Below, piece after piece: positions 1 through 17,148 of a stretch of 35,650 bases of DNA. Each line of letters opens with the position of its first letter. The stretch's first letter is position 1. The position numbers were made by a program, and so were the translations under genes. The notes under the pieces were generated by a model that searched no databases, was not told where the DNA came from, and saw only the letters and a list, made by a program, of their open reading frames with translations. Origin of the DNA: an uncultured Bacteroides sp. (lineage in GTDB: Bacteria; Bacteroidota; Bacteroidia; Bacteroidales; Bacteroidaceae); assembly GCA_945965395.1 (NCBI GenBank), contig CAMFND010000158.1, positions 1 through 35,650 of the forward strand, written 5' to 3'.

Positions 1-122
1 CTCTTGACACTTCCGAAAAATCAGAAGGTATAGTGATTTTAGAAGAAACATTGAAGAAAGATATTGATGAAGGACTAAGAGAATGGGTAAATGAATGTTT
101 GGATGAACAGAAAGAGGAATGA
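1..122 (+). CDS. 3' end of an unknown cassette protein (partial)
   Basis: An open frame enters from the left edge and stops with TGA at 120-122. The 39 visible residues are strongly charged and end in a helix-like stretch (LREWVNECLDEQKEE). Repeat R1 starts a few bases after the stop, so this is the last part of the cassette before it. The start and most of the protein lie outside the window and the family cannot be named. Confidence 0.6.
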   Translation, partial: LDTSEKSEGIVILEETLKKDIDEGLREWVNECLDEQKEE

Positions 123-124
123 AT

Positions 125-184
125 TATTACTAACGAGCCAAGTTAGCTGCTAACGCAACTCCTTGTCAAACCATTAGAAACAGT
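125..184 (+). repeat. Cassette-boundary repeat R1 (divergent copy)
   Basis: Carries the left TAAC box (131-134) and the right box AAACCATTAGAAACAG seen in the other copies. Pairing is weaker: CAAG near 138-142 faces CTTG near 162-165, with an imperfect inner arm (AGTTaGC facing GCAACT). Confidence 0.65.
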
Positions 185-199
185 TAGAATTGAAATAGG

Positions 200-760
200 A
201 TGGTAGTCATTGTATTGCTTCTTATGCTAATTATAGCCTTCTTTGGATGCATCGTCCAAAAGGATTTTAGACATTCCTTGATATTTGCATTTCCGATTTT
301 CATCATTATTGGAATGTATGTATGGCTATTTACATTGTATCCAGTTCAATGGGGATTAAAAAAATTACCTTTCGTTGAACAAGCATGTATAAGAGAAATA
401 TCGGCAAGTGATTACTATCTGTTAAATTACAGGCACCTCAAATACGATGGTGTGATAGAATTTATAACAGATAAAAAAATTGATGATTGTCAAATTATTT
501 TACGAGGCAGCTATAAAAGGAATTTAAGCTACAATGATTTTATAACTAATGATAGTCTTGCCATATTAATCTCTTATGATGTGGTTTTTGTCAAAGAAAT
601 GAACGATAAGTTTTTTTATAAAGCATTGTTTATTTCGAATCAACCCAATAATAACATACTATGTGATAGTATCTATTGCAAGATTTTTATGATACGTATG
701 TTTGCTCCTATTTATGAAACGAACGAGTTTGCAATACCAACTATTTCAAATGGCAAATAG
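200..760 (+). CDS. Unknown cassette protein with two N-terminal membrane helices
   Basis: 186 residues. Two hydrophobic segments (about 2-19 and 26-47) are followed by about 140 polar residues, so the protein is probably inner-membrane anchored with a soluble domain. It sits alone between R1 and R2 in the same direction as its neighbours. The start is the first ATG after the repeat, in the usual position for this array. No family is recognised. Its place among short, AT-rich, unrelated genes including a Tdi1-type immunity gene makes an immunity role plausible, but that is inference from context. Confidence 0.75.
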   Translation: MVVIVLLLMLIIAFFGCIVQKDFRHSLIFAFPIFIIIGMYVWLFTLYPVQWGLKKLPFVEQACIREISASDYYLLNYRHLKYDGVIEFITDKKIDDCQIILRGSYKRNLSYNDFITNDSLAILISYDVVFVKEMNDKFFYKALFISNQPNNNILCDSIYCKIFMIRMFAPIYETNEFAIPTISNGK

Positions 761-761
761 A

Positions 762-820
762 GTTTATAACGAGGTCGAGATAACAGCTAAACGCTGTTGC
801 TCACCAAACCATTAATAACA
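762..820 (+). repeat. Cassette-boundary repeat R2 (good hairpin copy)
   Basis: Left box GTTTATAAC (762-770). Hairpin: GGT-c-GAG (773-779), AT, AACAGC (782-787), 5-nt loop, GCTGTT (793-798), one unpaired G, CTC-ACC (800-805). The right box AAACCATTAATAACA follows. The outer arm has one bulged C on the left side. Confidence 0.85.
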
Positions 821-832
821 ATAGAACGAAAC

Positions 833-1291
833 ATGAAGATAAGAATATTGACTTATTTACCTCACATCATCTACTTTTTAGTATTGGGAGTACTATTATT
901 GTTATTGGTGTGGATTGTAAGTCCATCTGATACAGGTGGAGGCATGGACTTTGCTCCTTTTTTACAGGCAGCTTTACTTTTTGCAGGTGTTCTTGCATAT
1001 CTGATTTACGATTTGTCTTTACATAAGCTCAACTTCAGAATATCTTCACAATTTATAATATTTATTTTTTTAGCATGGTCGTTTAGACATTACTTTAAGA
1101 TGCAGGAGCTGAATAAATTATGTAGTGGTCATCCGGAACCTCCATATGATTCTCTTATACCTCCACCAATAGATGATTTTATAGTATTATGGGTTGTTTG
1201 TCAGGGGATTCTTTTTTACTTATTCTTATTTACAAATGTTTCGTATTTGTTAAATAGAAAAAAGTTATTAACAAACCGGGATAACGCTTGA
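833..1291 (+). CDS. Unknown four-helix membrane cassette protein
   Basis: 152 residues from the ATG at 833. An upstream in-frame TTG at 797 lies inside repeat R2 and would translate the repeat, so ATG 833 is chosen. Four hydrophobic stretches (near the N-terminus, in the FAPFLQ region, in the FIIFIF region and in the last 40 residues) predict an integral inner-membrane protein. The coding sequence ends inside R3: the last codons (AAC CGG GAT AAC GCT TGA) are the left arm of the repeat hairpin. No family is recognised; a membrane immunity role is possible from context only. Confidence 0.75.
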   Translation: MKIRILTYLPHIIYFLVLGVLLLLLVWIVSPSDTGGGMDFAPFLQAALLFAGVLAYLIYDLSLHKLNFRISSQFIIFIFLAWSFRHYFKMQELNKLCSGHPEPPYDSLIPPPIDDFIVLWVVCQGILFYLFLFTNVSYLLNRKKLLTNRDNA

Positions 1292-1320
1292 CTGCGTTCC
1301 CCACTAAACCATTATAAACA
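1264..1320 (+). repeat. Cassette-boundary repeat R3
   Basis: Left box GTTATTAAC (1264-1272). Hairpin: GGG (1278-1280), AT, AACGC (1283-1287), loop, GCGTT (1294-1298), C, CCC (1300-1302). Right box TAAACCATTATAAACA. The upstream gene's stop codon is at 1289-1291 in the hairpin loop. Confidence 0.8.
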
Positions 1321-1335
1321 ATAAAACAAATTTTT

Positions 1336-1770
1336 ATGGAAGATTTTGATATTCTAAAGAGATTTGACAATGATAAGCTAATAGATGTTGTGAAAAATTA
1401 TAAGCGTTACGACTATGATGATGAAATTCGTGATTATGCTATTAATTTATTGGAAGAAAGAGGCTGGAGCATTGAGGATTTGAAAACATTCGGTTATTGG
1501 GAAAATTCCGATTACGAAGAAGCATTGATACAATACAAAGCTTATTGTAGAAATTCACTGATAGCTGTCTGTGTCTTGGTGTTAAGTCTTTGTATGCTGG
1601 CGCCTATCTATCTTGTATTTGTTTTTATGGCATATCGGAATGTATGTAAGTTCTATCAGGCATTAGGGAGAAAGGAAGAAGCCGTATTCTCCTTTGACTT
1701 GTGTTGGCATGTTTTGTTGTTCTTCTACCTAAAAGAGAAAATGAAAGAGGAGTTGAAAGGAATAAGATAA
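1336..1770 (+). CDS. Unknown cassette protein, helical N-domain plus membrane segment
   Basis: 144 residues. The N-terminal 50 residues (DDEIRDYAINLLEERGW region) look like a small helical domain. A long hydrophobic segment spans about 74-99 and a second amphipathic or hydrophobic stretch about 119-133. The layout, including a charged helix ending in 'ERG/KRG', resembles the 151-residue protein at 17149-17604 (EEVRLAKKELYKRGIN), so the two may belong to one loose family. It lies alone between R3 and R4. Function is unknown; its place in the array suggests immunity against a toxin acting at the inner membrane. Confidence 0.75.
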   Translation: MEDFDILKRFDNDKLIDVVKNYKRYDYDDEIRDYAINLLEERGWSIEDLKTFGYWENSDYEEALIQYKAYCRNSLIAVCVLVLSLCMLAPIYLVFVFMAYRNVCKFYQALGRKEEAVFSFDLCWHVLLFFYLKEKMKEELKGIR

Positions 1771-1820
1771 GTTTATAACAAAAAACAACTTAACGTTGTC
1801 TCTCACCCAAACCATTAACA
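1771..1820 (+). repeat. Cassette-boundary repeat R4 (outer stem lost)
   Basis: Starts directly after the upstream stop with GTTTATAAC (1771-1779). Only the inner stem remains: ACAAC (1785-1789) pairs with GTTGT (1795-1799). The right box CCAAACCATTAACAA is kept. Confidence 0.7.
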
Positions 1821-1834
1821 AAAACAGAAAGTCT

Positions 1835-2145
1835 ATGAACAAAGAATACTTTGTATTAGAAATAGAGGACACAAGTTCTGCTGAGTATAGAAAGAACTAT
1901 TGGAAAAAAGCAGCCGAAATTCTCCTTGAGAGAATATATCAAAGAGAACAGTGCATATCCGAAAAGGTTAAAAATATCATAGAACTTTGTTCTTTACCCG
2001 AACATCGTTTTTTAATGTAGATGTTTATATGCCTAAAAAAAGGAATAAGGCAGATACCAACTATTATGCTCTACATTACGACTTTACCTATATTCAAAAT
2101 GATATATTAGGAATGATTGATTACCTTAAAATGATAGAACAATGA
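1835..2145 (+). pseudogene. Frameshifted cassette gene (two ORFs, one apparent protein)
   Basis: ATG 1835 opens a 61-residue frame that stops at 2018-2020. A second frame (ATG 2029, 38 residues, stop 2143-2145) continues at once. The junction is a run of six T's just before 2014. With one more T the frame reads ...LPEHRF FNVDVYMPKKRN... without a stop and gives a single protein of about 103 residues. This suggests a one-base loss in a homopolymer (or a sequencing error or phase variation). An upstream in-frame TTG (1796) lies in repeat R4 and is not used. No family is recognised; the rebuilt protein is charged and soluble. Confidence 0.65.
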
Positions 2146-2150
2146 TTTAA

Positions 2151-2606
2151 ATGATGATTGGTATGCGTTATCCGTTCAATCTTTCTGAACCTTTGGTCAT
2201 TCCACGGAAGAAAATCAGTACATTTGTGGAAGCCGGGTTGTGTATCGCTTATATATGGCTCTGTTGGGACATGCTGTCCGAAAGACTGGTTTTTTGGATT
2301 CCCGTAGGCCTATTTTTTTATTTTTTGGTGAAAGGTATCCGGCATTGGCACCATGTCATCCGAATCAGTGAACAGGGAATCACTACTCCCAAAAGAAAGC
2401 TGTTGCTTTGGAATAAAATCTTGTATTGCCGATATGTGGTAGTGTATGGTAGATGTACGCATGTAGAACTGTTTTTCCGTACTAGCCAGAACTACAACGA
2501 GACAATCCTTCTGGATGATTATTTCTGTAACCATCGGGAGTTGAGGGCTGCCATTGCATTTTACTCCAGAGGGAAGGTGGAATTGGAAAGTAAAGAAGAA
2601 TTTTAG
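2151..2606 (+). CDS. Two-TM protein with PH-like C-terminal domain (hypothetical)
   Basis: 151 residues. Two hydrophobic segments (about 23-40 and 45-63) precede a beta-rich C-terminal region (WHHVIRISEQGITTPKRKLL, then VELFFRTSQNYN). This two-helix plus bacterial PH-like layout is also seen in the protein at 8514-8993. The start is five bases after the frameshifted gene and no boundary repeat lies between them, so R4 to R5 is a two-gene cassette. GC looks higher than in the neighbouring cassettes. The PH-like assignment rests on layout only; function is unknown. Confidence 0.7.
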   Translation: MMIGMRYPFNLSEPLVIPRKKISTFVEAGLCIAYIWLCWDMLSERLVFWIPVGLFFYFLVKGIRHWHHVIRISEQGITTPKRKLLLWNKILYCRYVVVYGRCTHVELFFRTSQNYNETILLDDYFCNHRELRAAIAFYSRGKVELESKEEF

Positions 2607-2701
2607 TATGAAATTACATTACTGGAATAATGTTTTCAATTCCGGGTAACAGATAGTATCTTGTTCATAGACCTAACCCAATATTAGAATGGGTATAATA
2701 T

Positions 2702-2765
2702 TTTGCTAACTAGGTTGAGATAACAGCTTAATGTTGTTCCTCAAGCAAATCATTAGATATAACAG
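2702..2765 (+). repeat. Cassette-boundary repeat R5
   Basis: TTGAG (2715-2719), AT, AACAGC (2722-2727), loop, GTTGTT (2733-2738; a G-T wobble keeps pairing), C, CTCAA (2740-2744). Right box AAATCATTAGATATAACAG. Left box degenerate (TTTGCTAAC). Confidence 0.8.
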
Positions 2766-2767
2766 AT

Positions 2768-3376
2768 ATGAGAATATTTATACTATATTGCTTGCTCCTT
2801 TTTCCACTTAGCTATGTCATAGCGGAAAATGGCTGTATGGAACAAAGTTCTGCAAAATATCATTCTTTGGCTGAACAAGATTCCCTTTATATAGAAACGG
2901 AAAAAACAGAATCTGAAATTCTATATAGGTTATGTTTTAATCAGCAAGGTAAAAAGAATGTTGTTTTTGAGTTGAAAGCGGTAGATGATAGTAGTATTGA
3001 CTTCATACAAAGCTATACAATCATGGGTGTAAGAAAGTTTGATAGCTTTGCTGTGTACGATAATGTAGCAGACGGAAATCGTTTTTTGTTTTTTGATTAT
3101 GAAAGTCAAATTGCTTATATAACGCCTACTTGTTTTTCCGGTTTCTATCCGATATACAGTTCTGTGGACTTTTCAAAAATGGAAGTTTTGCTACAAAATG
3201 AACATTCTTGTTTGAAGTATCCAAGTGATACGTTAAGTATTGACAGTAAGGTGACTTATGTTCCATTTAACTGTAATAATCGAATCATAAAGGCAATTTT
3301 TGTTCCATACGCTCAAGTAGGAAAAGATAATAAATATTTAAAACGAAAGATAGCATCTGGCGATGCTCCTTTCTAA
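2768..3376 (+). CDS. Unknown exported cassette protein
   Basis: 202 residues with a clear Sec signal peptide (MRIFILYCLLLFPLSYVIA, cleavage predicted after VIA). The mature part is beta-rich and polar, so a periplasmic or surface location is likely. The last codons (AAG ATA GCA TCT GGC GAT GCT CCT TTC TAA) run through both arms of the R6 hairpin and the stop lies at its outer end, so the C-terminal sequence (KIASGDAPF) is supplied by the repeat. No family is recognised. An exported orphan immunity protein is one possibility. Confidence 0.75.
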   Translation: MRIFILYCLLLFPLSYVIAENGCMEQSSAKYHSLAEQDSLYIETEKTESEILYRLCFNQQGKKNVVFELKAVDDSSIDFIQSYTIMGVRKFDSFAVYDNVADGNRFLFFDYESQIAYITPTCFSGFYPIYSSVDFSKMEVLLQNEHSCLKYPSDTLSIDSKVTYVPFNCNNRIIKAIFVPYAQVGKDNKYLKRKIASGDAPF

Positions 3377-3390
3377 CCATTATCAACCAT
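3335..3390 (+). repeat. Cassette-boundary repeat R6 (perfect hairpin, variant arms)
   Basis: GAAAG (3345-3349), AT, AGCATC (3352-3357), 4-nt loop, GATGCT (3362-3367), C, CTTTC (3369-3373). Both arms pair perfectly although the sequence differs from the usual AACxxx type. Right box TAACCATTATCAACC. Nearly the same as R11. Confidence 0.85.
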
Positions 3391-3403
3391 AAAACGTAGA
3401 AAT

Positions 3404-3994
3404 ATGTACGAAGAATTTTTAGAAAAAAGCCTCAATAGTAAGAGGCAAGCAGTAGATGATACTTTTATTGCTAAATATGCTGATTTGTCTTATCCCGAAC
3501 TGAATACTTTATGGCAGGAGGTCGGGCTGGGAAGTTATTGTAATGGGCTGTTTAAGCTCATCAATCCGTCCGATTATCAGGATGTGATAAACTCCTGTTT
3601 TGAAAAGGAGGATGACCAATCATTTCTACCATTCATGTGTACGGCTTTCGGAGATCTCTTTGCCTATGTAAAGAATCCGAGGCTGAATAATTACGTCGTT
3701 TATCTGAATGTCAGATACGGAACATATTTAATACTTCCTGCCAATCTTCGTGCGATTTTTAATAAGGTCATGGTAAATGAAAGTTTCTTGAAAGGCTGGT
3801 TTGATTTAGAAAATTATCCTGTAATACAGGAGAAACTCGGAACTCCAGACTATGATGAGTGTTTCGGATATTCTCTACTTTTGGCTTTGGGAGGAAGTGA
3901 GGATATTGAAAACATCAAGATAGTCAAGACCATTCCGTACATTGACATTTGTACCCAAACAATCGGCGAATTTGAAGTTGCAGATAAATGGTGA
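3404..3994 (+). CDS. GAD-like / DUF1851 (Tdi1-type) immunity protein
   Basis: 196 residues, cytoplasmic, no signal peptide. The N-terminal half carries the GAD-like signature (about 25-60: LNTLWQEVGLG, then GLFKLINPSDYQDV). The C-terminal half carries the DUF1851/Tdi1-C signature (about 135-190: LGTPDYDECFGYSLLLALGG, then YIDICTQTIGEF). In this family, Agrobacterium Tdi1 neutralises the type VI effector DNase Tde1. Here no toxin gene is next to it, so it is an orphan immunity gene that would protect against other strains' effectors. It lies alone between R6 and R7 and gives the best functional clue for the whole array. Confidence 0.85.
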   Translation: MYEEFLEKSLNSKRQAVDDTFIAKYADLSYPELNTLWQEVGLGSYCNGLFKLINPSDYQDVINSCFEKEDDQSFLPFMCTAFGDLFAYVKNPRLNNYVVYLNVRYGTYLILPANLRAIFNKVMVNESFLKGWFDLENYPVIQEKLGTPDYDECFGYSLLLALGGSEDIENIKIVKTIPYIDICTQTIGEFEVADKW

Positions 3995-4005
3995 ATATAG
4001 AATAG

Positions 4006-4060
4006 GTTGATAACGAAGCAGGATAACGGCAAGCCGTTCCCTGCTGAACCATTATAAACA
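4006..4060 (+). repeat. Cassette-boundary repeat R7 (best hairpin copy)
   Basis: Left box GTTGATAAC (4006-4014). Hairpin: AGCAGG (4017-4022), AT, AACGGC (4025-4030), AA loop, GCCGTT (4033-4038), C, CCTGCT (4040-4045). Right box GAACCATTATAAACAG. The outermost GTTGATAA and TTATAAAC can also pair at 7 of 8 positions. Confidence 0.9.
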
Positions 4061-4072
4061 GTAATGCAAAAT

Positions 4073-4822
4073 ATGAAACAGAATATATGCCATATCAGTA
4101 TTTTTTTACTCTTTTGGTTTTGTGGAGTAGTCTATCCACAAAATCACAAAGCGGATGTTTTACAAAAAGACCTTTCTGACTTGTTTGACAATTCAAGCAT
4201 GATTGGCATATTAGGAGAAGATTGTAGCCGAATTGATATTCATTTTGCCGAAGTTCGGAAAATAGATGATAGAGAATATGAGATAAAAGGTGCCAGTCGT
4301 ACCCGATTGTCTTTAATCTGTCCGTTTGAAGGGAATATTTTTATAGATAGTATTTCTTCTTGTTTCCAAATAATGAAAAGTGAATGTACGGAAGTGGACG
4401 GTTTCATATACGGGCATTACTCGTTTGAGGAATACGGAGATAAACGATATAGCGGTACATTCTCCGGTTCTTTCAAGCAAGGGTATCGGATGAGAGGACA
4501 ACAAATAGAGAAAGGACGGAATGAAATAGTAGAACTGAAATTGAACTTATCTGAATATCGGGGTAAGTGGAAACCCGCAAAGGGATTGACAAAAGTCTGT
4601 TCCTGGGCAGATGAAATTATACCCGATACTCCTGCAAACTTCTGCCTGTTTAATGATGCAGGCGAATGGGTTGTATCACCGAAATATCGTAAGAATGGTT
4701 GGGAGAATCTATATAATGCCTATCACAATGAGAATCTGACAACGGATGAGATACAAAAGGCCCGTGAAGTGGAAGAACAGGAATGGTGGGTAAATAAAAG
4801 CCAATCATGCAAAGTAAATTGA
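4073..4822 (+). CDS. Unknown exported cassette protein
   Basis: 249 residues from ATG 4073; ATG 4064 is also in frame but lies tight against the repeat, and the later ATG gives a cleaner signal peptide (hydrophobic core ISIFLLFWFCGVV). The mature protein has a beta-rich middle with repeated glycine/aromatic pattern (GHYSFEEYGD, YSGTFSGSFKQGYRMRG) and a C-terminal charged tail. It is probably periplasmic. No family can be named. It sits alone between R7 and R8. Immunity to a periplasm-acting toxin is possible from context only. Confidence 0.75.
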   Translation: MKQNICHISIFLLFWFCGVVYPQNHKADVLQKDLSDLFDNSSMIGILGEDCSRIDIHFAEVRKIDDREYEIKGASRTRLSLICPFEGNIFIDSISSCFQIMKSECTEVDGFIYGHYSFEEYGDKRYSGTFSGSFKQGYRMRGQQIEKGRNEIVELKLNLSEYRGKWKPAKGLTKVCSWADEIIPDTPANFCLFNDAGEWVVSPKYRKNGWENLYNAYHNENLTTDEIQKAREVEEQEWWVNKSQSCKVN

Positions 4823-4881
4823 GTTTATGACAAAGCGTGATAACGCTTACAGCGTTCCCCGCTGAACTATTACTGATAATA
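4823..4881 (+). repeat. Cassette-boundary repeat R8
   Basis: Left box GTTTATGAC directly after the stop of the upstream gene. AGCG (4834-4837), TGAT, AACGCT (4842-4847), 3-nt loop, AGCGTT (4851-4856), CCC, CGCT (4860-4863). Right box GAACTATTACTGATAA is slightly worn. Confidence 0.85.
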
Positions 4882-4892
4882 GAAAATTTGAT

Positions 4893-5453
4893 ATGAAACT
4901 GTTCCTTTTGATATTGACATCTGTTTTTTCCATAGGATTAATAAAAAGGAAAGATTCAACGGATATATCTCAAAATAATGATTGCATTTTCAGGGATACT
5001 TTGGTTGGATATGTAGATTATGACAATGTTTTAGACAGCATATATATTGAAAAGACTTCTGAATATCGGTATGATGATAATGATGGTATGAAAGAATGTT
5101 TCGAACAGGCAGAAAGAGTAATATTTACTGTTTCATTTGGAAATACAGGAGAAATACTTGTGTTGGAAGATAAAGAAGTTTTTGATTATCCATATGCTGG
5201 ATATTCATCTTTGGCTTACAATATCGAAGAAAAAGGTATAATATCAAGACGTACTTATTCATCAAGGTTTTCAGATAAAGTTTATGTGGACTCATATTAT
5301 AAATATGATGACAAGTTAAATGACTTTTTCAGGATAAAAGAACTCATACGTTTAAGTGAAGGCACACACATGATTGATTCAATAATGAAAATGGATTCAA
5401 TTCAGCCTTCTTTGGACGGCAGATGTAATAAAATCAGTAACAAGGAAAGATAA
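4893..5453 (+). CDS. Unknown exported cassette protein
   Basis: 186 residues. The N-terminus has a short hydrophobic signal (MKLFLLILTSVFSIGL) with no clear lipobox. The mature part is acidic (many D, Y, E) and includes DYDNVLDSIYIEKT and YYKYDDKLNDFF stretches, typical of small periplasmic beta proteins. The stop TAA (5451-5453) lies in the R9 hairpin and the last residues NKER are repeat-encoded. No family is recognised. Confidence 0.75.
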   Translation: MKLFLLILTSVFSIGLIKRKDSTDISQNNDCIFRDTLVGYVDYDNVLDSIYIEKTSEYRYDDNDGMKECFEQAERVIFTVSFGNTGEILVLEDKEVFDYPYAGYSSLAYNIEEKGIISRRTYSSRFSDKVYVDSYYKYDDKLNDFFRIKELIRLSEGTHMIDSIMKMDSIQPSLDGRCNKISNKER

Positions 5454-5492
5454 CACCTAAACGGCATTCCTTTTCAAACCATTAGTGATAAC
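5435..5492 (+). repeat. Cassette-boundary repeat R9
   Basis: GGAAAG-type outer arm (GAAAG at 5445-5449) pairs with CTTTTC (5470-5475, one wobble). The inner arms AACACC and GGCATT pair at 4 of 6 positions. The AT / C internal loop is kept. Right box AAACCATTAGTGATAACA. Confidence 0.75.
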
Positions 5493-5527
5493 AACATAAT
5501 TATAAATCCAAAATATAAATAATAGAT

Positions 5528-5728
5528 ATGATTGCATGTGTAATAAATATGATACTTATAGCGGTTTCACTGTTGCTACTCTTTTTATTAAGAAAGAAGA
5601 AATATAAAGGTGTAAAGAAAATAATAATACTAACAATATGCTTTGTGACAGGTCTGTATATTTTGTTGCAAATAATTATGTTGCTATATTTCTTCTTAGG
5701 CGATTTCTCTGCAGAAGAATTATGGTAA
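5528..5728 (+). CDS. Small two-helix membrane cassette protein
   Basis: 66 residues: two hydrophobic helices (about 3-21 and 31-55) joined by a basic loop (RKKKYKGVKK), with a short acidic tail (GDFSAEELW). The basic loop suggests both ends face the periplasm. Its leader and first codons (from about 5482) have a diverged partial copy at about 7682-7740. It sits between R9 and R10. Function unknown; a small membrane immunity peptide is possible. Confidence 0.65.
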   Translation: MIACVINMILIAVSLLLLFLLRKKKYKGVKKIIILTICFVTGLYILLQIIMLLYFFLGDFSAEELW

Positions 5729-5732
5729 AAAT

Positions 5733-5790
5733 ATCACTAACAACGCAGGATAACGGTAAGCCATTCCCTGCTGAACATTAATAACAAAAC
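5733..5790 (+). repeat. Cassette-boundary repeat R10 (close copy of R7)
   Basis: GCAGG (5745-5749), AT, AACGGT (5752-5757), AA, GCCATT (5760-5765), C, CCTGC (5767-5771). It differs from R7 in the hairpin at only two inner-arm positions. The right box lost one base pair of its consensus (GAACATTAATAACA). Confidence 0.85.
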
Positions 5791-5802
5791 TAATAATTCT
5801 TT

Positions 5803-6192
5803 ATGATTAAATTCTTTTTTGATGCGATATATTATCAGTTCTTTATATACAATAGGGATAAATTTAAGTTGGAAGATCCACATGAGAGAACAATATTACT
5901 ATTCTGTGGAATATTATTTCTACCGATAATTGCATTGATTTATCCATTGATAAAAGAGAATTTCAATTATGATTTGCCGTTTATTTTCTTTGTTCCAATA
6001 TTTTGTATTCTATATTATCTTTTAAATAGATATTATGTAAGAAAGGGAAAAGGAATTGAGATAATACGAGAAAAACCTTTATTGTTTAAAAACCAACGTT
6101 TATCGTCCATTATTTCTTGGATGGTTTACCCATTTTTAGCTGTATTACTTTATTTCATGATAACACATCGGCATTGGCTGAAAATAATATAA
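5803..6192 (+). CDS. Unknown three-helix membrane cassette protein
   Basis: 129 residues. Hydrophobic segments near 30-48, 57-75 and 104-120 predict an inner-membrane protein with a polar N-terminus (YNRDKFKLEDPHERT). It is alone between R10 and R11, in the array direction. No known family recognised. Very AT-rich codons, like the rest of the array. Confidence 0.7.
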   Translation: MIKFFFDAIYYQFFIYNRDKFKLEDPHERTILLFCGILFLPIIALIYPLIKENFNYDLPFIFFVPIFCILYYLLNRYYVRKGKGIEIIREKPLLFKNQRLSSIISWMVYPFLAVLLYFMITHRHWLKII

Positions 6193-6206
6193 TAAAGATT
6201 TAATAA

Positions 6207-6264
6207 GTTGGTAACAACGAAAGATAGCATCTGACTATGCTCTTTTCTAACCATTAGCATTAAC
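6207..6264 (+). repeat. Cassette-boundary repeat R11 (close copy of R6)
   Basis: Left box GTTGGTAAC (6207-6215). GAAAG (6219-6223), AT, AGCAT (6226-6230), 6-nt loop, ATGCT (6237-6241), C, TTTTC (6243-6247; the G-T wobble keeps pairing). Right box TAACCATTAGCATTAAC. Confidence 0.85.
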
Positions 6265-6285
6265 GTGCAACTTAAAAAAATCAAT

Positions 6286-7614
6286 ATGAAGATAATAAAT
6301 TGGACATTACTTTTTCTTGTAATGTTTTTTTGTTGTTTAGATAGCGCGAAAGCAAATCCATTACAGCAAGATACTATAAGGGATGTAACTTATCAACTTT
6401 ATCCGTTGGGAGTTGCTTGCCGTGACAATGATATGGCAACCATAAAACGGTTGCTGGCAGGAAAAGATGAACCGATGGCAATGGGTAACGATTTTTATGA
6501 GTTTGATATATTTTATACGGCAATTTACTTTGATAAAGAAGATGTGCTGAAATATGCCCTTACCAAGTATAAAGATATTAATAACAGATTATATAGTGAC
6601 GAATATGGGCTGACGCTCCTGACATATGCCTGTAAATTGTCTAACGTGAGGTTAGCACATATATTGCTGGAGCATGGCATTAGCGTAAATGGTTACCAAA
6701 GTCCATATGATACATATAAAGTATATCCGATTATGGAAGCCATTGCCAATAATAACATAGAACTGGTGAAGTTGCTTTTAGAATATCACGCAGATCTTAA
6801 TATAAAAGGCAGTAACGGCAACACCCCTCTTGCTTTAGCAAAGGAAATAGGTGCAAAAGAAGTAGAAGATTTGCTTTTGCAATGGATGAAACAACATACT
6901 TTTGGACAAAGCTATAAGGAAACTATTCAAGAGGAGATTGATGCAATAAACGAAATGCCTTTGTGGATTGCATACCTTGTTCCTTTGGATAGTTTAGGGA
7001 AAGTGATAGAGGATGAATATATGGAGTTTAATCAAATCCATTCATACAAAATCTTAGATGATGGTCAAATCAAGAATGCCAATATATTGTTCGCGATGTA
7101 TTTCGATCGCGATAACAAAATAAGAAAAGTATTTAAGCGATGGGCTGACGGGGGAGCATTGCATAGTATTGCATATTATAATTCTAATGGGCGATTGATA
7201 TATGGAATATATAATAAAGGCGATGAAACTCACGGAAAGTTGTATGCTGATGCTTCGGGTTTTCACATAGAGCATTTCCCTGAAGAGAATGAATGTAATG
7301 ATTGTTTTGAAGCATATTTATTCCTGTCTACGAAAAGCATAGAAGCTCAATATAATATAATATTACAGAGCTTTTCAAATGCTAAAAGGACGAATTTTAT
7401 ACCACAAATTGGAGATAGTGCCATACTATGCAGTTCTTGCATTTATTCTTTACCTGATGGCGAAAAAACTACCAAAGGTGAGGATGGCATAGCAGTCCAA
7501 TTTGGAATGCCTGTTGTCATAAGTGAATTAATAAATGGCTGGTGCAGAATAAATTCCATTTTTAATGCTCCTATTGGTTATATACCTATTCAAGACATTG
7601 AAATCATTAAGTAA
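6286..7614 (+). CDS. Exported ankyrin-repeat protein with C-terminal SH3-like domain
   Basis: 442 residues from ATG 6286; an in-frame GTG at 6265 lies in repeat R11 and is not chosen. Signal peptide MKIINWTLLFLVMFFCCLDS with cleavage near AKA/NP. Ankyrin repeats span about 40-205 (clear consensus in LLTYACKLSNVRLAHILLEH and GNTPLALAKEIGAKEVEDLL). A middle region with a basic/aromatic pattern follows, then an SH3-like tail (about 375-440: GDSAILCSSC, GMPVVISELINGWCRI, GYIPIQDIE). This suggests a periplasmic binding protein, perhaps cell-wall associated. It is the last complete cassette of the array. A decayed, shortened copy lies at 11576-12039. Confidence 0.85.
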   Translation: MKIINWTLLFLVMFFCCLDSAKANPLQQDTIRDVTYQLYPLGVACRDNDMATIKRLLAGKDEPMAMGNDFYEFDIFYTAIYFDKEDVLKYALTKYKDINNRLYSDEYGLTLLTYACKLSNVRLAHILLEHGISVNGYQSPYDTYKVYPIMEAIANNNIELVKLLLEYHADLNIKGSNGNTPLALAKEIGAKEVEDLLLQWMKQHTFGQSYKETIQEEIDAINEMPLWIAYLVPLDSLGKVIEDEYMEFNQIHSYKILDDGQIKNANILFAMYFDRDNKIRKVFKRWADGGALHSIAYYNSNGRLIYGIYNKGDETHGKLYADASGFHIEHFPEENECNDCFEAYLFLSTKSIEAQYNIILQSFSNAKRTNFIPQIGDSAILCSSCIYSLPDGEKTTKGEDGIAVQFGMPVVISELINGWCRINSIFNAPIGYIPIQDIEIIK

Positions 7615-7624
7615 ATATATAGTA

Positions 7625-7690
7625 AACAACTAACACGTCCGAGATAACAGCTTAACACTATTGATTACCAAGCTATAACTGATTACAACA
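7625..7690 (+). repeat. Cassette-boundary repeat R12 (decayed)
   Basis: Keeps the left half (CTAACACGTCCGAGATAACA, then GCTTAAC) but the right arm is mutated (CACTATTGATTACC instead of GCTGTTCCTC..ACC). The right box is AGCTATAACTGATTACAAC. It marks the end of the regular array. Confidence 0.65.
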
Positions 7691-7740
7691 TAATTATAAA
7701 TTCAAAATATAGATATATGATTATATGTGCGATATGTGAT
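7682..7740 (+). other. Remnant copy of the 5528 cassette's leader and start
   Basis: The stretch TTACAACATAATTATAAATT with the following AAAATATAGATATATGATT matches the 5482-5540 segment just before and at the start of the 66-residue membrane gene. It loses similarity after about 15 codons. It looks like a truncated cassette left at the array end. Confidence 0.55.
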
Positions 7741-7756
7741 TAAATCAAATTAATCA
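7737..7756. promoter_or_regulatory. Operator-like inverted repeat upstream of the TetR gene
   Basis: Perfect 7-bp arms TGATTAA and TTAATCA separated by 6 bases, directly upstream of the -7 motif at 7759. The position would let a bound regulator block this promoter. The arms differ from the TGACC-type operators at 8447 and 8496, so it is probably not bound by the same TetR. Confidence 0.35.
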
Positions 7757-7758
7757 TA

Positions 7759-7766
7759 TATCTTTG
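7759..7766 (+). promoter_or_regulatory. Bacteroidetes -7 promoter element for the TetR gene
   Basis: TATCTTTG matches the TAnnTTTG consensus, 28 bases before ATG 7795. No convincing -33 TTTG is visible. Confidence 0.5.
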
Positions 7767-7794
7767 GGAGAAAGATGGATTATAATATATAAAT

Positions 7795-8409
7795 ATGAAA
7801 ACAAATAGGGACGAAATATTGGAGAGTGCTTTTCAGTTGTTTATGGCAATGAATTATGAGCGTGTAAGTCTGCAAATGATAACTAAAAAGGTAGGGCTTA
7901 CTAAAACAGGAATATTTAATTATTACCCTACCAAACTTGATTTGTTCATAGCCGTAGCTGATAAGTTCCTTTTTAAGATACAGGACCCTAAAACTAAATA
8001 TGAGATACACGATGGTACTTTCAGGGATTTCATTCAGAAGTATGTTCAGGGTGTGAAGAATGCGATGGCTAAGATTGTCGATTTAGGCAATTTAAGTAAA
8101 GATATTATGCCAGGTAAATGTGCTAATGCCGGATATTTGCATCTTTTGCAGCAAGTAAGATTGTATTATCCAGATGGGGCAAGCAAGCTACAGGAAATGA
8201 TTGAAAATGATAAGGAGCATTGGCGTGTGGCTATACATGCTGCTGTTAAGAATGGGGAATTGAGAAAAGATATAGATGTGGAGAGTGTGATACTGCTTTA
8301 TCATCATGTTTTCATGGGTATGTCTTATGAGATGTCTTTGTTTAACGGACTTGATACTGATTTGCTTTATTCAAGTTTTATGTGTTTGTATGATGTGTTG
8401 AAGCAATGA
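7795..8409 (+). CDS. TetR/AcrR-family transcriptional regulator
   Basis: 204 residues, the usual length for the family. The N-terminal HTH domain (about 1-50) is typical: RDEILESAFQLF, then YERVSLQMITKKVGLTKTGI and FNYYPTKLDLF. The C-terminal two thirds are helical and variable and should bind a ligand and dimerise. The gene stands just upstream of, and in the same direction as, a four-gene operon whose promoter has two identical-pattern TetR-type operators, so it is likely that operon's repressor. A terminator (8433-8474) separates the two transcripts. No operator of the same type is seen before its own start. Confidence 0.9.
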   Translation: MKTNRDEILESAFQLFMAMNYERVSLQMITKKVGLTKTGIFNYYPTKLDLFIAVADKFLFKIQDPKTKYEIHDGTFRDFIQKYVQGVKNAMAKIVDLGNLSKDIMPGKCANAGYLHLLQQVRLYYPDGASKLQEMIENDKEHWRVAIHAAVKNGELRKDIDVESVILLYHHVFMGMSYEMSLFNGLDTDLLYSSFMCLYDVLKQ

Positions 8410-8432
8410 TATAAAATAATCCTTTTCAATTA

Positions 8433-8474
8433 AAAAAAGCAAAATATGACCAGACGGTAATATTTTGCTTTTTT
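8433..8474 (+). terminator. Intrinsic terminator of the TetR gene, with operator in its loop
   Basis: A perfect 15-bp stem (AAAAAAGCAAAATAT, 8433-8447, with its complement 8460-8474) ends in six T's. The 12-base loop contains the core of the first TetR-type operator (8447-8460). Confidence 0.75.
8447..8460. promoter_or_regulatory. TetR-type operator O1
   Basis: TGACCAGACGGTAA, a pseudo-palindrome of the pattern TnACC-nnnn-GGTnA. The same pattern recurs at 8496-8509, 49 bp downstream centre to centre. It lies before the -7 element at 8481. Confidence 0.65.
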
Positions 8475-8480
8475 ATTTTT

Positions 8481-8488
8481 TATATTTG
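8481..8488 (+). promoter_or_regulatory. -7 promoter element of the DUF1266 operon
   Basis: TATATTTG is a perfect TAnnTTTG match, lying between operators O1 and O2 and 26 bases before ATG 8514. Confidence 0.6.
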
Positions 8489-8495
8489 CAAAAAA

Positions 8496-8509
8496 TGACC
8501 AATCGGTAA
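8496..8509. promoter_or_regulatory. TetR-type operator O2
   Basis: TGACCAATCGGTAA, same half-sites as O1. It begins 7 bases after the -7 element and ends 4 bases before the start codon, so it should cover the transcription start and block the promoter when bound. Confidence 0.65.
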
Positions 8510-8513
8510 TATT

Positions 8514-8993
8514 ATGGAAAAGGAAAAATTTGAGAGCGTAAACAAAACGTTCAATTACACTCCAAACAGTGTTTTTACGAATCAGTGGTCCAGTCTGGCA
8601 TTTGGTATAGGTATGGTTGTCGTTCCATTGATATGGCCTTTCGGACTTCGTATCAGGCGTGTTCATGTATTGTCGCCTGCAGTCTTGTCAACAATTCTTG
8701 TAATAGGAGGGATATTGCTTCTGTTGTTTACTCTGCAGAGTATGCGGAAGGCTAAAGCATTGATTGCACAAGGAGGAACAATCAAGGTAGAAGGTAACAG
8801 AGTGACATATCCATCCATTGAAAAAGGCAAGGTAGAATATCGTTCATTCCTCATTTCAGATATAGAATATATTAAAGATGATGAAGAAGAGAATCAGTGT
8901 AAGGTCAGTCTTCCTGATAAGTATGTGATTTTTGAAATCAAATATTTTGACTCATACGATGAGTTTGAAGAATTTCGTGCGATTTTAGGATAA
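8514..8993 (+). CDS. Two-TM protein with PH-like domain, first gene of TetR-controlled operon
   Basis: 159 residues. Two hydrophobic segments (about 28-45 and 60-78) are followed by a beta-rich C-terminal region (GGTIKVEGNRVTYPSIEKG, ISDIEYIKDDEEE, YVIFEIKYFDSYDEFEEF) that fits a bacterial PH-like domain. Similar layout to the protein at 2151-2606. The ATG lies 5 bases after operator O2, so it is probably a short-leader transcript. First of four genes in one direction with gaps of 27, 33 and 20 bases. Function unknown; it may anchor a complex made with the lipoprotein and the two DUF1266 proteins. Confidence 0.75.
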   Translation: MEKEKFESVNKTFNYTPNSVFTNQWSSLAFGIGMVVVPLIWPFGLRIRRVHVLSPAVLSTILVIGGILLLLFTLQSMRKAKALIAQGGTIKVEGNRVTYPSIEKGKVEYRSFLISDIEYIKDDEEENQCKVSLPDKYVIFEIKYFDSYDEFEEFRAILG

Positions 8994-9020
8994 AATAAAC
9001 CAATTTAAAAACTTAATATT

Positions 9021-9704
9021 ATGATTAGACAATTTTTCAAGGCAACACTGGTAGTTTCAATGGTTGCATCGGTACTTGTTGGCTGTAATGGAAGTGAACC
9101 TTTAGGAATGGGCTCAGAAGAGAGTATTTCGAAAATAAAGGAGCTCGTAAAAACCAATGTCGATATGAATGAAAACAAAATCTATGAATTGCAATGGGAG
9201 GAAGATAACGGTGAGCATAAGTTGGAAAATATGCTTTCAAGTATCACTGTTGGCTACATTGATAAAGAAAATAATGATTATAAACTTATTATAGAGTTAA
9301 AAGACGGAGAATTTGTTGCAGGTGAACCGGATAAGAATGAAAAATGGAAATATTCGTATGAAAAGTCAACGGCACTGAATCTTGACGATATAAATGCCGG
9401 TTTATTGAAAAAAATGGTCAAAGAGGGATATGACTTGTTTATGACACAGGAAGACAGTACCCAATATGATCTTAAATCAGTCGGGAAGTACAGGTTCTAC
9501 ATTTATCCGGTAAAAGTCGGTCGTGAGCATTTGCTTGCTGAGAATGAATCTTTCAAAAAAGAATATACCACTATGGTTTCTTACTTCGACTTGAATTTCA
9601 TCAAGAAAGATGAGGCACCTGAAGTACGTGGAAAACATATATGGACCAATTACTATACCGCTTCATTTAAGATTGATGAAAACGGAGAGATAGGATTTTT
9701 TTGA
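9021..9704 (+). CDS. Putative lipoprotein of the DUF1266 operon
   Basis: 227 residues with a lipoprotein signal: hydrophobic core followed by lipobox LVGC (residues 19-22), so Cys22 would be lipidated. The mature part is acidic and mixed alpha/beta (ENKIYELQWEEDNGEHKLEN, YFDLNFIKKDEAPE, YTASFKIDENGEIGFF). No known domain is recognised. Second gene of the TetR-controlled operon, so it would be produced with the membrane protein before it and the DUF1266 proteins after it. Confidence 0.8.
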   Translation: MIRQFFKATLVVSMVASVLVGCNGSEPLGMGSEESISKIKELVKTNVDMNENKIYELQWEEDNGEHKLENMLSSITVGYIDKENNDYKLIIELKDGEFVAGEPDKNEKWKYSYEKSTALNLDDINAGLLKKMVKEGYDLFMTQEDSTQYDLKSVGKYRFYIYPVKVGREHLLAENESFKKEYTTMVSYFDLNFIKKDEAPEVRGKHIWTNYYTASFKIDENGEIGFF

Positions 9705-9737
9705 TAGATAAGAAGGCTAATTATAAATCAAAGTATT

Positions 9738-10727
9738 ATGGAAAACGGAAAAACGTATGGAAAACAGACTCCGGAAGAAATAGCAAGAGCCGCACAGGAA
9801 GCGGCTATCAAGTCAGCCATGGAACAGGCGCAATTAATGTTAGGAAACATACCAGGTATGAACATGCAGGACATGCAGGCACAGATTATGGTTCAGATGC
9901 AGGCTGCTGTTCCGAATCTTGCCGATATACAAGCCCAACAGGCTACGATGGGAACATTAGGAGATGTGGATGCGGATATAGTACGTAATGTCGGTATGAA
10001 AAACATGAATGATGCTGCGGATATAACACAATCTTTGATGGGCTTAGATTTCAACGTTGATGATTTCTTTGATGATAATGATAGCTGGGAGATAAAAAGA
10101 AGCAAGGATGGTACCTTAAACAGTGAACAGCTTCGTTTGTTGGCTCTTGGGGCACCGATACTGGTCTATAATGATGAATATACAGATACCATAGGACACC
10201 AGGAGTATGTGGATTCATTGAAAGAACAGATAAGAAGCTGGTGGGAGGTAACTGACAGAGGGTCTACTTTTGAAATTGTTGATTGGCTGCTTCATGAAGG
10301 ACATCATGCTGAAGCGGATAGGGTTCTTGCTGCCATGAGAAACGGGCAGGAAACCGAAGGTATTGATGAAGATAAGGTAGAAGATGTGTCGTTGATAACG
10401 GACTACATGTTGGAAAACAGTATCTGTGATATGAATTCTGTACCTCATACAGCCATTGCCTGGGATTTGGTACGTATTGTCAACCTCGGGCGTTGGGCTT
10501 TCCAGTGCGGTTATATTACAGAAGAAGATATGTGGAACATCATGCGTGTAGCGGATGAAACTGCTTCTGCAAATTTCTCTTCGTGGGAAGAATATGGTAT
10601 GAGTTTCGTTCTTGGTCGTGGTGTATGGCACGGTGATACAGACGATTGTCAGACTGCATACGAGATTGTTACGGAATTACTGAAGAATGAAGATTCACCT
10701 TGGTTGCAGTTTTCATGGAGTGATTGA
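9738..10727 (+). CDS. DUF1266-domain protein (larger paralogue)
   Basis: 329 residues, cytoplasmic. The first 110 residues are rich in A, M and Q (EIARAAQEAAIKSAMEQAQL, MNMQDMQAQIMVQMQ) and probably form long helices. The C-terminal two thirds match the DUF1266 pattern: a W-W pair near 'IRSWWEV', AWDLVRIVNLGRWAFQCGYI, then SSWEEYGMSFVLGRGVWHG and a closing SPWLQFSW. The next gene is a paralogue with the same C-terminal landmarks. The family is unassigned. The pair points to a duplicated component or two specificities. Confidence 0.85.
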   Translation: MENGKTYGKQTPEEIARAAQEAAIKSAMEQAQLMLGNIPGMNMQDMQAQIMVQMQAAVPNLADIQAQQATMGTLGDVDADIVRNVGMKNMNDAADITQSLMGLDFNVDDFFDDNDSWEIKRSKDGTLNSEQLRLLALGAPILVYNDEYTDTIGHQEYVDSLKEQIRSWWEVTDRGSTFEIVDWLLHEGHHAEADRVLAAMRNGQETEGIDEDKVEDVSLITDYMLENSICDMNSVPHTAIAWDLVRIVNLGRWAFQCGYITEEDMWNIMRVADETASANFSSWEEYGMSFVLGRGVWHGDTDDCQTAYEIVTELLKNEDSPWLQFSWSD

Positions 10728-10747
10728 TTATTTAAAAGAGCGGAAAA

Positions 10748-11545
10748 ATGAGTTACGAATTTTATATAATGTCGGGTATTGCCGTTTTTGTGGGCTGTAC
10801 GTGGCTGTACCGGAAAGGTAAAGGGGCATACATGATGGTACGGAAAATCAGAAGTGCGTTTAAGGTTGTAAATATTAATCCGGCATCCTCTCTTGCCGAT
10901 GAGCAATATAAGAAGCTTGCTGTCGGTGCGTTGTATGCCTCACAGCAAGGAGCATACCAGAATTCTATAAAGACAGGTATAGACTATGAACTTCCACAGA
11001 TACTTGGTGAATGGTGGGGAATCAGAAACAGTCAGGATGCCAGGGAAAAAATGGATTATTTGCTGGAAAAAGGATTCAGATATTATTTCCCTTATGTATG
11101 GCAGGCTTTTCTTCTTTCCGACCCCAAGCAACAGGATGAGGTGTTTCAGCAATATATGGAGTCGCAGGAAGATTATGATAAGGCTGTATCTCAGCTTCAG
11201 AATCTGGAAGAGACTTATGATGAGTTGATTGAGAATAAAGTCATATCTTCAAAAGAAGACCTGAAGCGTTATGGTGTTGCCGGATGGGATGCAGGTAGGG
11301 TATGTTTCCTTGCGCGTGCCTGTTGCGAGATGTGTTATATCACAGAAGAAGAAGCCTGGCAGTATATTGACAGAGCGTATGATCTGGCACATCGGGAGTT
11401 CGCTTCATGGCATGACATGGCGATGAGTTATATTATAGGGCGCTCAATGTGGGGAGGAAAGAAATCTTATAATTCAGTAATGAAGGATAACGCCGATAAA
11501 TTACTTTCCGATGAAAAAAGTCCGTGGGTAAGATTTCAATGGTAA
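10748..11545 (+). CDS. DUF1266-domain protein with N-terminal membrane anchor (smaller paralogue)
   Basis: 265 residues. A hydrophobic segment at about 5-20 (YIMSGIAVFVGCTWLY) anchors it to the membrane, unlike the paralogue before it. The DUF1266 landmarks are present: LGEWWGIRNSQDAREKMDYL, AGWDAGRVCFLARACCEM, CYITEEEAWQYI, FASWHDMAMSYIIGRSMWGG and the final SPWVRFQW. Last gene of the TetR-controlled operon, 20 bases after the larger paralogue. Function unknown. Confidence 0.85.
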   Translation: MSYEFYIMSGIAVFVGCTWLYRKGKGAYMMVRKIRSAFKVVNINPASSLADEQYKKLAVGALYASQQGAYQNSIKTGIDYELPQILGEWWGIRNSQDAREKMDYLLEKGFRYYFPYVWQAFLLSDPKQQDEVFQQYMESQEDYDKAVSQLQNLEETYDELIENKVISSKEDLKRYGVAGWDAGRVCFLARACCEMCYITEEEAWQYIDRAYDLAHREFASWHDMAMSYIIGRSMWGGKKSYNSVMKDNADKLLSDEKSPWVRFQW

Positions 11546-11575
11546 TAACCTGACAATGTAGCCTAGAACAATACT

Positions 11576-12039
11576 ATGAGGATAGTAAACTGGGTATTGT
11601 TTTTTCTTGCAACATTTATATGTTATTGGGATAGTGTAAAAGCAAATGCATTGTTGCAAGATACAATACGAGATGAAATCTATCAGCTTTATCCGTTGGG
11701 TATGCCCTTACCAGATACAAGGATATTAATAATAGATTATATAGTGATGAATACGGGCTAACGCTCTTGACATACGCTTGCAAATTGTCTAACGTGAGAT
11801 TAGCCCGTATATTATTGGAGCATGGCATTAGCGTAAATGGCTTTCAAAGTCCATATGACACTTGTAAAGTATATCCGATTATGGAAGCAATCGCCAATAA
11901 TAACATAGAACTGGTGCAGTTACTTTTGGAGTACAATGCAGATATTGATATTAAAGACAGCAATGGTAACAGTCCTCTCGATCTGGCAAGGGAAATTGGT
12001 GTACGAGAGATTGAAAAAATTCTTTTATCATTTAATTGA
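11576..12039 (+). pseudogene. Decayed copy of the exported ankyrin/SH3 cassette gene
   Basis: Closely similar to the start of the gene at 6286 (signal peptide, then QDTIRDxxYQLYPLG). Bases equivalent to about 6411-6552 (some 142 bp) are missing, which shifts the frame, and the first ORF stops at 11759-11761. The second frame (about 11704-12039) again matches the ankyrin part (TYACKLSNVRLARILLEHGI, YPIMEAIANNNIELVQLLLE) and ends after GVREIEKILLSFN. The SH3-like half is absent. No boundary repeat flanks it. This is a duplicated and broken cassette. Confidence 0.8.
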
Positions 12040-12378
12040 GCACAGCAATAAAAGGCTATTCGGTGTCGGATTCTTTCAACAAGGAAATCAGGTTTAATGA
12101 ACGTCTTTTTGAGAATGTGTTGATTAGTAATTAACTAGCTAAGTTTGTATGATTTGTGCCCTTTATGCTGGGTATGCGATGGGACAAAGTAGGTGTTATT
12201 TGAAAACTAATCTGCTTCTTCTTTTGATAGAAGTAACTGATAAATGTCTTGAATATAGTATGGTTCGTGATTTTCAGTTAAAAGTGGAAACAGCTTTCTA
12301 ACTGCATTTATATAGTGAAGCTAAGCTTGTTTCTGTTTGTTTGGGAGGAAAGTACGAATATATAGAAAAATAAAAATA
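12040..12378 (+). other. Gene-free stretch with a possible C-terminal gene remnant
   Basis: No complete gene. The frame at about 12042-12134 reads TAIKGYSVSDSFNKEIRFNE, then RLFENVLISN and a stop, which looks like the tail of a protein unrelated to the ankyrin copy before it. The rest (12135-12378) has no recognisable promoter, repeat or RNA; it is the leader of the ankyrin gene at 12379. Confidence 0.4.
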
Positions 12379-13956: not shown

Positions 13957-13963
13957 TATTTGT

Positions 13964-14938: not shown

Positions 14939-14976
14939 AACATAACACCCCGTTCCCTGCAAATCATTATAAACTA
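14938..14976 (+). repeat. Cassette-boundary repeat R13 (right half only)
   Basis: AACACCCCGTTCCCTGC, then AAATCATTATAAAC, matches the right arm and right box of R7/R10 (CCGTTCCCTGCtgAACCATTATAAAC). The left arm is gone, so no hairpin forms. It is the only trace of the repeat in region 2. Confidence 0.55.
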
Positions 14977-15075
14977 TTTTCTCCTATTGCCTAAAGATTA
15001 TATTTGAGATAATGAACCAGTAAGTTCATAATGATAAAATATGGACTTTATGATGTTGCTAAAAAAGAAAAGGAT

Positions 15076-16194: not shown

Positions 16195-16214
16195 GTAATA
16201 ATGATGGCAAGATT

Positions 16215-17099: not shown

Positions 17100-17148
17100 G
17101 AAGCTGTAAAACTATTGTTTTAAATTATTATAGTCACTTATAGGAATA

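Follow-up and report, generated by a model that had tools for sequence, protein, structure and literature searches.

The 35,650-nt contig CAMFND010000158.1 of an uncultured Bacteroides sp. (assembly GCA_945965395.1; "the window" is this whole stretch) carries, at 131-7678, 12 hairpin repeats, all on the + strand, which enclose 11 cassettes. We consider it likely, with a probability of about 0.82, that the window holds part of a type I recombinase-associated acquired interbacterial defence (rAID) array assembled by integron-like site-specific recombination. Comparison of related loci shows that cassettes change neighbours, that the apparent breaks lie in an ATT triplet at the repeat end, that a leader appears as the alternative partner, and that the predicted hairpin and an outer five-base pairing are conserved. 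In the mechanism we propose, the mobile unit would be a single cassette, made up of an open reading frame (ORF) with a hairpin repeat at its 3′ end, and a tyrosine recombinase encoded at the upstream end of the array would join the repeat end, within CC-ATT-A, either to another repeat or to an attI-like leader site just behind the recombinase's own gene. The substrate would presumably be a circular cassette with a folded hairpin strand, in which pairing of NNNNNTAA with TTANNNNN brings the cassette's ends together as an R box; the acting enzyme would be the array recombinase, and the cargo would provide orphan immunity. More broadly, and with less assurance, we think it probable that rAID arrays are a second integron lineage, in which a tyrosine recombinase other than IntI puts circular single-gene cassettes, via folded single-stranded sites, into a dedicated leader. 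This lineage would be specialised on trading immunity genes among gut Bacteroidales, and its sites would fall into two types or more (I and II), each served by a recombinase clade and a leader of its own.

Arrays were cut at their ATTA ends, which gave 331 cassettes, 33 of them first behind a leader, in 179 clusters. Two mis-anchored first cassettes (loci L069 and L055) were excluded from the breakpoint, end-pairing, junction-fold and different-genome counts and are still included in the all-pairs, array-order, ORF-size and leader-gradient counts. Among 144 pairs of cassettes from different genomes with at least 95% identity and both flanks known, 108, drawn from 45 cassette clusters and 24 genomes, had no related neighbour on either side, 16 shared the neighbour on one side and 20 shared both; at 99% identity, 51 of 78 different-genome pairs had unrelated neighbours on both sides. 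When every pair was counted, within-genome pairs too, the neighbours were unrelated in 121/181 (≥95%) and 57/106 (99%), the cassette pairs not being independent of each other. Window cassettes 3, 5, 6, 7, 8 and 9 are found again elsewhere at ≥91% identity. Cassette 3 is 96.7% identical to the leader-proximal (first) cassette of B. caecigallinarum (L069), where the automatic cutting placed the anchor off by ~30 nt and the junction was read separately, and cassette 6 shares 97.2% identity with the one that directly follows the leader in Xylanibacter rarus (L092). Cassettes 5 and 8 match cassette 3 of L070 (93.8%) and cassette 11 of L057 (94.3%), with unrelated neighbours in both cases; cassette 9 matches cassette 7 of L086 (91.2%), and among the matches listed cassette 7 is 91.6-93.3% identical to its eight best cassettes and cassette 10 is 76% identical to six. 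In B. bouchesdurhonensis, a 489-bp cassette lies exactly between two cassettes that adjoin each other in Phocaeicola coprocola and Parabacteroides gordonii. Array content and order differ among the genomes compared, and some multi-cassette blocks are common to several arrays. Together, these comparisons indicate that each cassette would move as a separate unit via a folded DNA site, in the fashion of an integron, with a different enzyme.

The breakpoints are placed by these comparisons within the ATT of the terminal ATTA, against repeats and leader alike. Between leader and internal positions (29 pairs), identity was 1.00 at −4 to −1, 0.24 at −5 and 0.00 at −6; on the downstream side (131 pairs), identity dropped from 0.97 at −1 to 0.19 at 0. 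Where cassette pairs differ on the upstream side, at −6 in two pairs and at −5 in one, the difference remains with the upstream cassette. In one cassette family, −1 is C rather than A, whether the cassette follows a leader or lies within an array. Because this base travels with the cassette family, −1 belongs to the downstream cassette, which would put the crossover within ATT. The repeat has CCATTA at its right end and TAAC at its left end, and the leader of a sister type, described below, ends in GTTA. Leader and repeats have little in common beyond ATTA and are thus too dissimilar for homologous recombination between them to be workable. The conserved leader follows directly after the recombinase stop codon, with variable first cassettes behind it (none at L088), and is predicted to be an attI-like partner site, placed as attI is next to the integrase gene in integrons.

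The predicted hairpin of the repeat is under strong compensatory change. The covariance model, R1, was built from an alignment of the 12 window copies and three from contig C7 of the same genome. In a model-fitted alignment of 129 distinct repeats, 89.0% of cells were paired, against 71.7% when shuffled and at most 52.3% when slid, and 279 cells showed double changes against 88.8 in the shuffles; a second model-fitted set, of 125 repeats from other genomes, had 90.1% paired cells and 251 double changes against 84.5. The MAFFT alignment of the 15 copies, the same sequences on which the structure was chosen, had 85.4% paired cells against 69.4%. Among the inner ten pairs, G-U occupied 8 of ~1166 paired cells in the 129-repeat set and 12 of ~1120 in the 125-repeat set, a near-absence that in our view points to DNA rather than RNA; the outermost pair, often unpaired, was G-U in 21/69 and 13/78 paired cells, respectively.

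An integron cassette pairs its own start with the outer box of its attC, two stretches that come to lie side by side only in the circle. The attC site is folded, with R and L boxes and an unpaired spacer (PMC2727003, PMC8946536). We compared the five bases after ATTA at each cassette start with the five before TAAC of the cassette's own repeat, in 325 cassettes (331 minus 4 skipped and 2 mis-anchored). The cassette's own ends were perfectly complementary in 216/325, compared with 4/325 for the next cassette and a shuffled mean of 7.9 (maximum 17 in 1000 shuffles). With one cassette per cluster, the match was perfect in 95/175, compared with 2 for the next cassette and a shuffled mean of 3.5 (maximum 11). 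A coarser de-duplication into 68 groups (26 perfect versus 1; shuffled mean 0.97, maximum 4) was judged too coarse, and the clusters were used instead. In the window, six of the 11 cassettes have perfect end pairing and three pair at four of five bases. When folded as DNA, the own-end (circle) junction was more stable than the array junction in 128/175, equal in 29 and worse in 18 (p 2.9e-22); for cassette 6, which carries a Tdi1 immunity gene, the values were −15.4 and −10.2 kcal/mol. Such own-end complementarity is the pairing expected of a circular integron cassette, and the sites are predicted to share both the R''-L''-L'-R' fold of attC and the R-box pairing of circular-cassette ends.

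Many relatives have an intact 368-residue tyrosine recombinase directly upstream of the array. A tyrosine recombinase on the array strand accompanies 41 of the 58 repeat-bearing loci compared, the other 17 being contig pieces, stretches of longer arrays, or leader-bearing arrays in which no recombinase was found. In loci fetched by the recombinase alone, 142/142 repeat matches, distributed over 26 of 70 loci, are on the recombinase strand and downstream of it. The strand survey of the repeats comprised 229 matches, from which the 12 weakest were removed; three of the remaining 217 are one site in two overlapping stretches. No recombinase is present in the window, whose position 1 is the edge of the contig (C158). 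In the same genome, contig C31, whose physical link to the window contig is unproven, carries an array start and a decayed recombinase. As no other close recombinase homologue was found in this genome, the array probably no longer changes, except where an enzyme is supplied in trans. The array recombinase appears to be IntI/XerA-like and to lack the IntI insert: its closest group in fold and sequence is XerA/XerH together with IntI, in a neighbour list that leaves its N-terminal 88 residues uncovered; it scores 199 bits, in two stretches, against TIGR02249 (cut-off 265), and its sequence alignment to 2a3v breaks in two around chain residues 221-243. No relative was found in phage records at E≤1e-30.

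The initial annotation had suggested an integron-like, rAID-like array of single captured immunity genes, in which cassettes are gained, lost or reordered at the repeats and related loci hold a recombinase. This interpretation is supported: the order is not fixed, the breaks fall at the repeat end, between species rather than between strains of one, and the recombinase is present in related loci, with immunity presumptive for most cassettes.

Several observations weigh against this reconstruction. No recombination event has been observed, in one strain or in the laboratory, the comparisons being between species, and recently shared cassettes are not in excess near the leader (27/62 at positions 0-1 versus 41/82 at positions ≥4, p=0.50). 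No promoter was found in 33 leader stretches scanned with a simple Bacteroides consensus pattern. Among the 70 recombinase loci, 44, mostly distant ones, lack a repeat of this type, and the recombinase homologue in the window's own genome lacks the catalytic residues. The fitting of both large repeat alignments to the model favours the model. RNAalifold gave no structure on the unaided 15-copy alignment and only five pairs on the larger alignment, so that the evidence for the fold consists of the counted pairs with their shuffle and slide controls plus the single-strand folds, of which those of repeats 1, 9 and 12 were no better than shuffles. About one third of cassettes, including window cassettes 1, 4, 5, 10 and 11, do not have perfect end pairing, and for window cassette 7 the circle junction is less stable than the array junction (−11.8 versus −13.8 kcal/mol).

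Recombination of the Xer/dif type, in which the recombinase would bind an inverted-repeat duplex and the symmetry of the hairpin would reflect two protein-binding arms, is in our judgement unlikely. The recombinase is indeed about equally near XerA/XerH and IntI, and the hairpin arms do form an inverted repeat, but the breakpoints lie past the hairpin, where the repeat ends on its right, and beyond them there is only a loose A-rich bias (for example A 80% at +5) and no mirror arm. Furthermore, the arms vary in sequence yet stay complementary, although one enzyme should read all sites of an array, and the five-base match between a cassette's own ends would have no role in a duplex. XerA and XerH work at a chromosomal dif-type site and are not known to serve cassette arrays. 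The notion that cassettes are shuffled by homologous recombination between repeats, or by repeated transposition, with the recombinase incidental, draws on the similarity of the repeats, the few cassettes with transposases and the shared multi-cassette blocks. It seems hardly credible to us, as the same cassettes join leader and repeat at the same base despite the little that these share beyond ATTA, the breakpoints are fixed in the pairs listed instead of wandering through the repeat, and the repeats share strand and order with the recombinase in all 142 matches. The repeats could also be RNA elements, such as terminators or processing or stability hairpins, kept for expression and mobile only as a side effect; they do lie at gene ends, on the coding strand, fold, and tolerate G-U in the outermost pair. 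We regard this as very improbable, given the scarcity of G-U in the inner pairs, whereas typical RNA helices do contain G-U pairs (no control was run for this comparison), the lack of any Rfam match at gathering scores in window positions 1-12000, and an end complementarity that would span bases hundreds apart in a transcript.

Under the integron-like reading, the cargo would be immunity genes; that it is instead general accessory cargo is quite unlikely, in our estimate. When nine window array proteins were run against Pfam one by one, six had no match at E≤0.1, one had a match below cut-off only, the others matched Tdi1 and ankyrin, and no toxin family was among them. The Tdi1/GAD-like gene at 3404-3994 scores above both Pfam cut-offs (T6SS_Tdi1_C 68.8 bits, GAD-like 52.0 bits) and is an orphan within the window, the cognate toxin not having been searched for in the rest of the genome. 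A simple Kyte-Doolittle scan shows one or more strongly hydrophobic 19-mers in 9 of the 11 main ORFs. Accessory cargo would suit the lack of a family for most of the window proteins run, and some transposase, ankyrin and leucine-rich repeat matches in a wider set of 140 out of 175 non-redundant cassette ORFs. In that set many proteins match nothing, so that immunity is presumptive for those, but most named families that recur are immunity families. The matches include DUF4274 (7), PoNi (6), Imm5, Imm-NTF2 and Tdi1 (3 each), and Imm43, SUKH and Imm11 (2 each) in Pfam, and Bfi1 immunity (5) and TaeI immunity (3) in NCBIfam. Of 52 Pfam families, 25 were listed, and these include no toxin family. 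NCBIfam models named after effectors (ankyrin-repeat type IV secretion system effectors, XopL) had one or two members each, which we read as cross-matches of ankyrin and leucine-rich repeats, and a PADLOC scan, with 12 families of one or two members each, left this reading unchanged. In published tests, rAID genes protect against type VI secretion system effectors (PMC12247911).

The array resembles known rAID systems, in which short co-oriented genes, orphan immunity genes among them, are low in GC, are separated by conserved intergenic motifs and come with a tyrosine recombinase (PMC12247911). The window and related arrays agree with rAID in their co-oriented short genes (~100-300 codons in rAID), intergenic motifs, low gene GC (<41% in rAID) and orphan immunity genes, and the upstream tyrosine recombinase is seen in many relatives, the window being truncated by the contig edge. 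AID-1 arrays are likewise clusters of orphan immunity genes in Bacteroidales, but they hold GA3-specific immunity factors and are contrasted with rAID (PMC12247911). The part of that account consulted here treats the biogenesis of rAID as an area of active research and does not describe where crossover occurs, how the site folds, any leader site or the pairing in a circular cassette; these come from the present analysis. Among titles and the beginnings of abstracts, we found no report of attC-like sites or cassette circles for rAID; Ross 2019 may already liken the arrays to integrons. Thus, rAID is already known as a kind of system, and what is added here is its recombination anatomy and mechanism.

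With integrons (IntI, attI and attC; the V. cholerae superintegron), the arrays share a platform recombinase with an adjacent leader, long arrays, single-gene cassettes each closed by a folded site (outer box, unpaired spacer, inner stem), a crossover in the terminal box, and cassette ends complementary in the circle. Unlike in integrons, the recombinase is below the integron-integrase cut-off, has no IntI-specific insert and carries an N-terminal extension of ~90 residues, and the core is ATTA plus five variable bases, whereas that of integron attC is GTTRRRY/RYYYAAC. Because its recombinase lacks the IntI insert, the array would work in an integron-like way but is no integron by that criterion. 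The map of sites (leader, ATT crossover, hairpin and circular end pairing) makes the question of rAID origin directly testable. If the proposed mechanism is true, IntI is not alone in recombining cassettes via folded sites, and gut bacteria own a dedicated gene-trading platform for protection against their neighbours' toxins.

Within the window, positions 1-130 (+) are the 3′ part of a further cassette truncated by the contig edge, 100% identical to L059:4452-4581 in array orientation and 96% to L091. Repeat 1, an attC-like hairpin from TAAC to ATTA, follows at 131-176 (R1 57.3 bits); repeats 2-6 are at 767-814, 1269-1314, 1776-1817, 2707-2755 and 3339-3382, and repeats 7-12 at 4011-4054, 4828-4872, 5438-5484, 5738-5780, 6212-6256 and 7631-7678. 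All cassettes are on the + strand and include the repeat at their end. Cassettes 1 (177-814) and 2 (815-1314) encode membrane proteins (200-760 and 833-1291; end complementarity 4/5 and 5/5), cassette 3 (1315-1817) has an ORF at 1336-1770 (5/5), and cassette 4 (1818-2755) has a broken short ORF at ~1836-2020 and a second ORF at 2151-2606 (4/5). Cassette 5 (2756-3382) encodes an exported protein (2768-3376; 4/5), cassette 6 (3383-4054) is that of the orphan Tdi1/GAD-like immunity gene (6/6), cassette 7 (4055-4872) encodes another exported protein (4064-4822; 5/5), and cassette 8 (4873-5484) has an ORF at 4893-5453 (5/5). Cassettes 9 (5485-5780) and 10 (5781-6256) encode a 66-residue membrane protein (5528-5728; 6/6) and a further membrane protein (5803-6192; 3/5), and cassette 11 (6257-7678) encodes an exported ankyrin protein (~6286-7614, with a Pfam ankyrin match; 2/5) and closes with the degenerate last repeat, which ends in CTATAA. 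Behind it, 7681-7740 (+) is a remnant of a cassette start; 54 nt of it match the beginning of cassette 9 at 81% identity. The GC content is 33.6% in the array and 44.0% in the remaining window.

The initial annotation had described twelve co-oriented structured repeats of 55-60 bp; number, orientation and structure stand, and the size is 42-49 nt, from TAAC to ATTA, by our own delimitation. Its eleven short same-direction genes correspond to the 11 cassettes, 10 of which have one main ORF; given the broken and second ORFs of cassette 4, the gene count is only approximate. Its Tdi1/GAD-like immunity gene and its mostly membrane or exported products were confirmed by the Pfam and hydrophobicity scans above, and the absence of toxins, among the nine proteins run, and of a recombinase from the window also holds.

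Two pieces of a decayed gene at 11572-12027, outside the array and without repeats, share 77-84% identity with the cassette 11 ankyrin gene and could be a donor or the relic of a cassette. Downstream of the array, at 8514-17604, inspection by eye reveals more small co-oriented genes without repeats, including ankyrin-like and DUF1266-like ones.

In the window's own genome, 19 copies of the repeat were found at E≤0.1, 12 on the window contig, three each on C7 and C31, and one on C49. Counting this genome, copies occur in 12/60 genomes of the genus sample at E≤0.01 and in 13/251 genomes, from 5/30 genera, of the family sample at E≤1e-6. In the phylum sample, the 15-copy model matched 2/392 genomes at E≤1e-6, namely the window's own and another of its genus, so that the motif is not a matter of chance. 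Several of the genus members are Phocaeicola (P. barnesiae, P. faecalis, P. coprocola, P. plebeius and P. intestinalis). Across the arrays, the longest ORF runs in the array direction in 328/331 cassettes, ORF length has a median of 187 residues (quartiles 140 and 240; 179 non-redundant cassettes), and median cassette GC is 33.4%.

Array-type recombinases also occur on two plasmids, at 84% identity on NZ_OY725747.1 (174 kb, Parabacteroides distasonis) and at 76% on NZ_CP081918.1 (190 kb, Bacteroides ovatus), which are a possible route for spread. In L080 and L083, the recombinase before the array is reduced to its C-terminal part, as in the window's own genome. Three tyrosine recombinase genes stand in a row at a contig end (G000:C103:486-2971), and an array region of ~60 kb (L059-L062; G017:C1:3718000-3794999) contains four leader copies, and a recombinase was found with only one of them.

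Recombinases at 44-57% identity were checked by script and by eye; a sister type has clear arrays, and the marine ones are a lead only. The sister recombinase group (~48% identical) heads arrays with another hairpin, which likewise covaries, the same ends (TAACAA...AACATTA) and its own leader, and in the circle test 42/71 cassettes were perfect, versus 1 (shuffled mean 1.96, maximum 8). Mixed arrays in L123 (P. coprocola), L140, L125 and L126 combine a sister-type leader with type I repeats, and L123 and L140 have sister-type repeats too. Type I and the sister type may therefore be compatible, or may have fused there. In L131, L137 and other non-gut Bacteroidota loci, recombinases of 44-57% identity are followed by sequences similar to the integron core site, such as ACGTTATGC or CGTTGTGC; these loci are possibly true integrons related to the ancestors of rAID.

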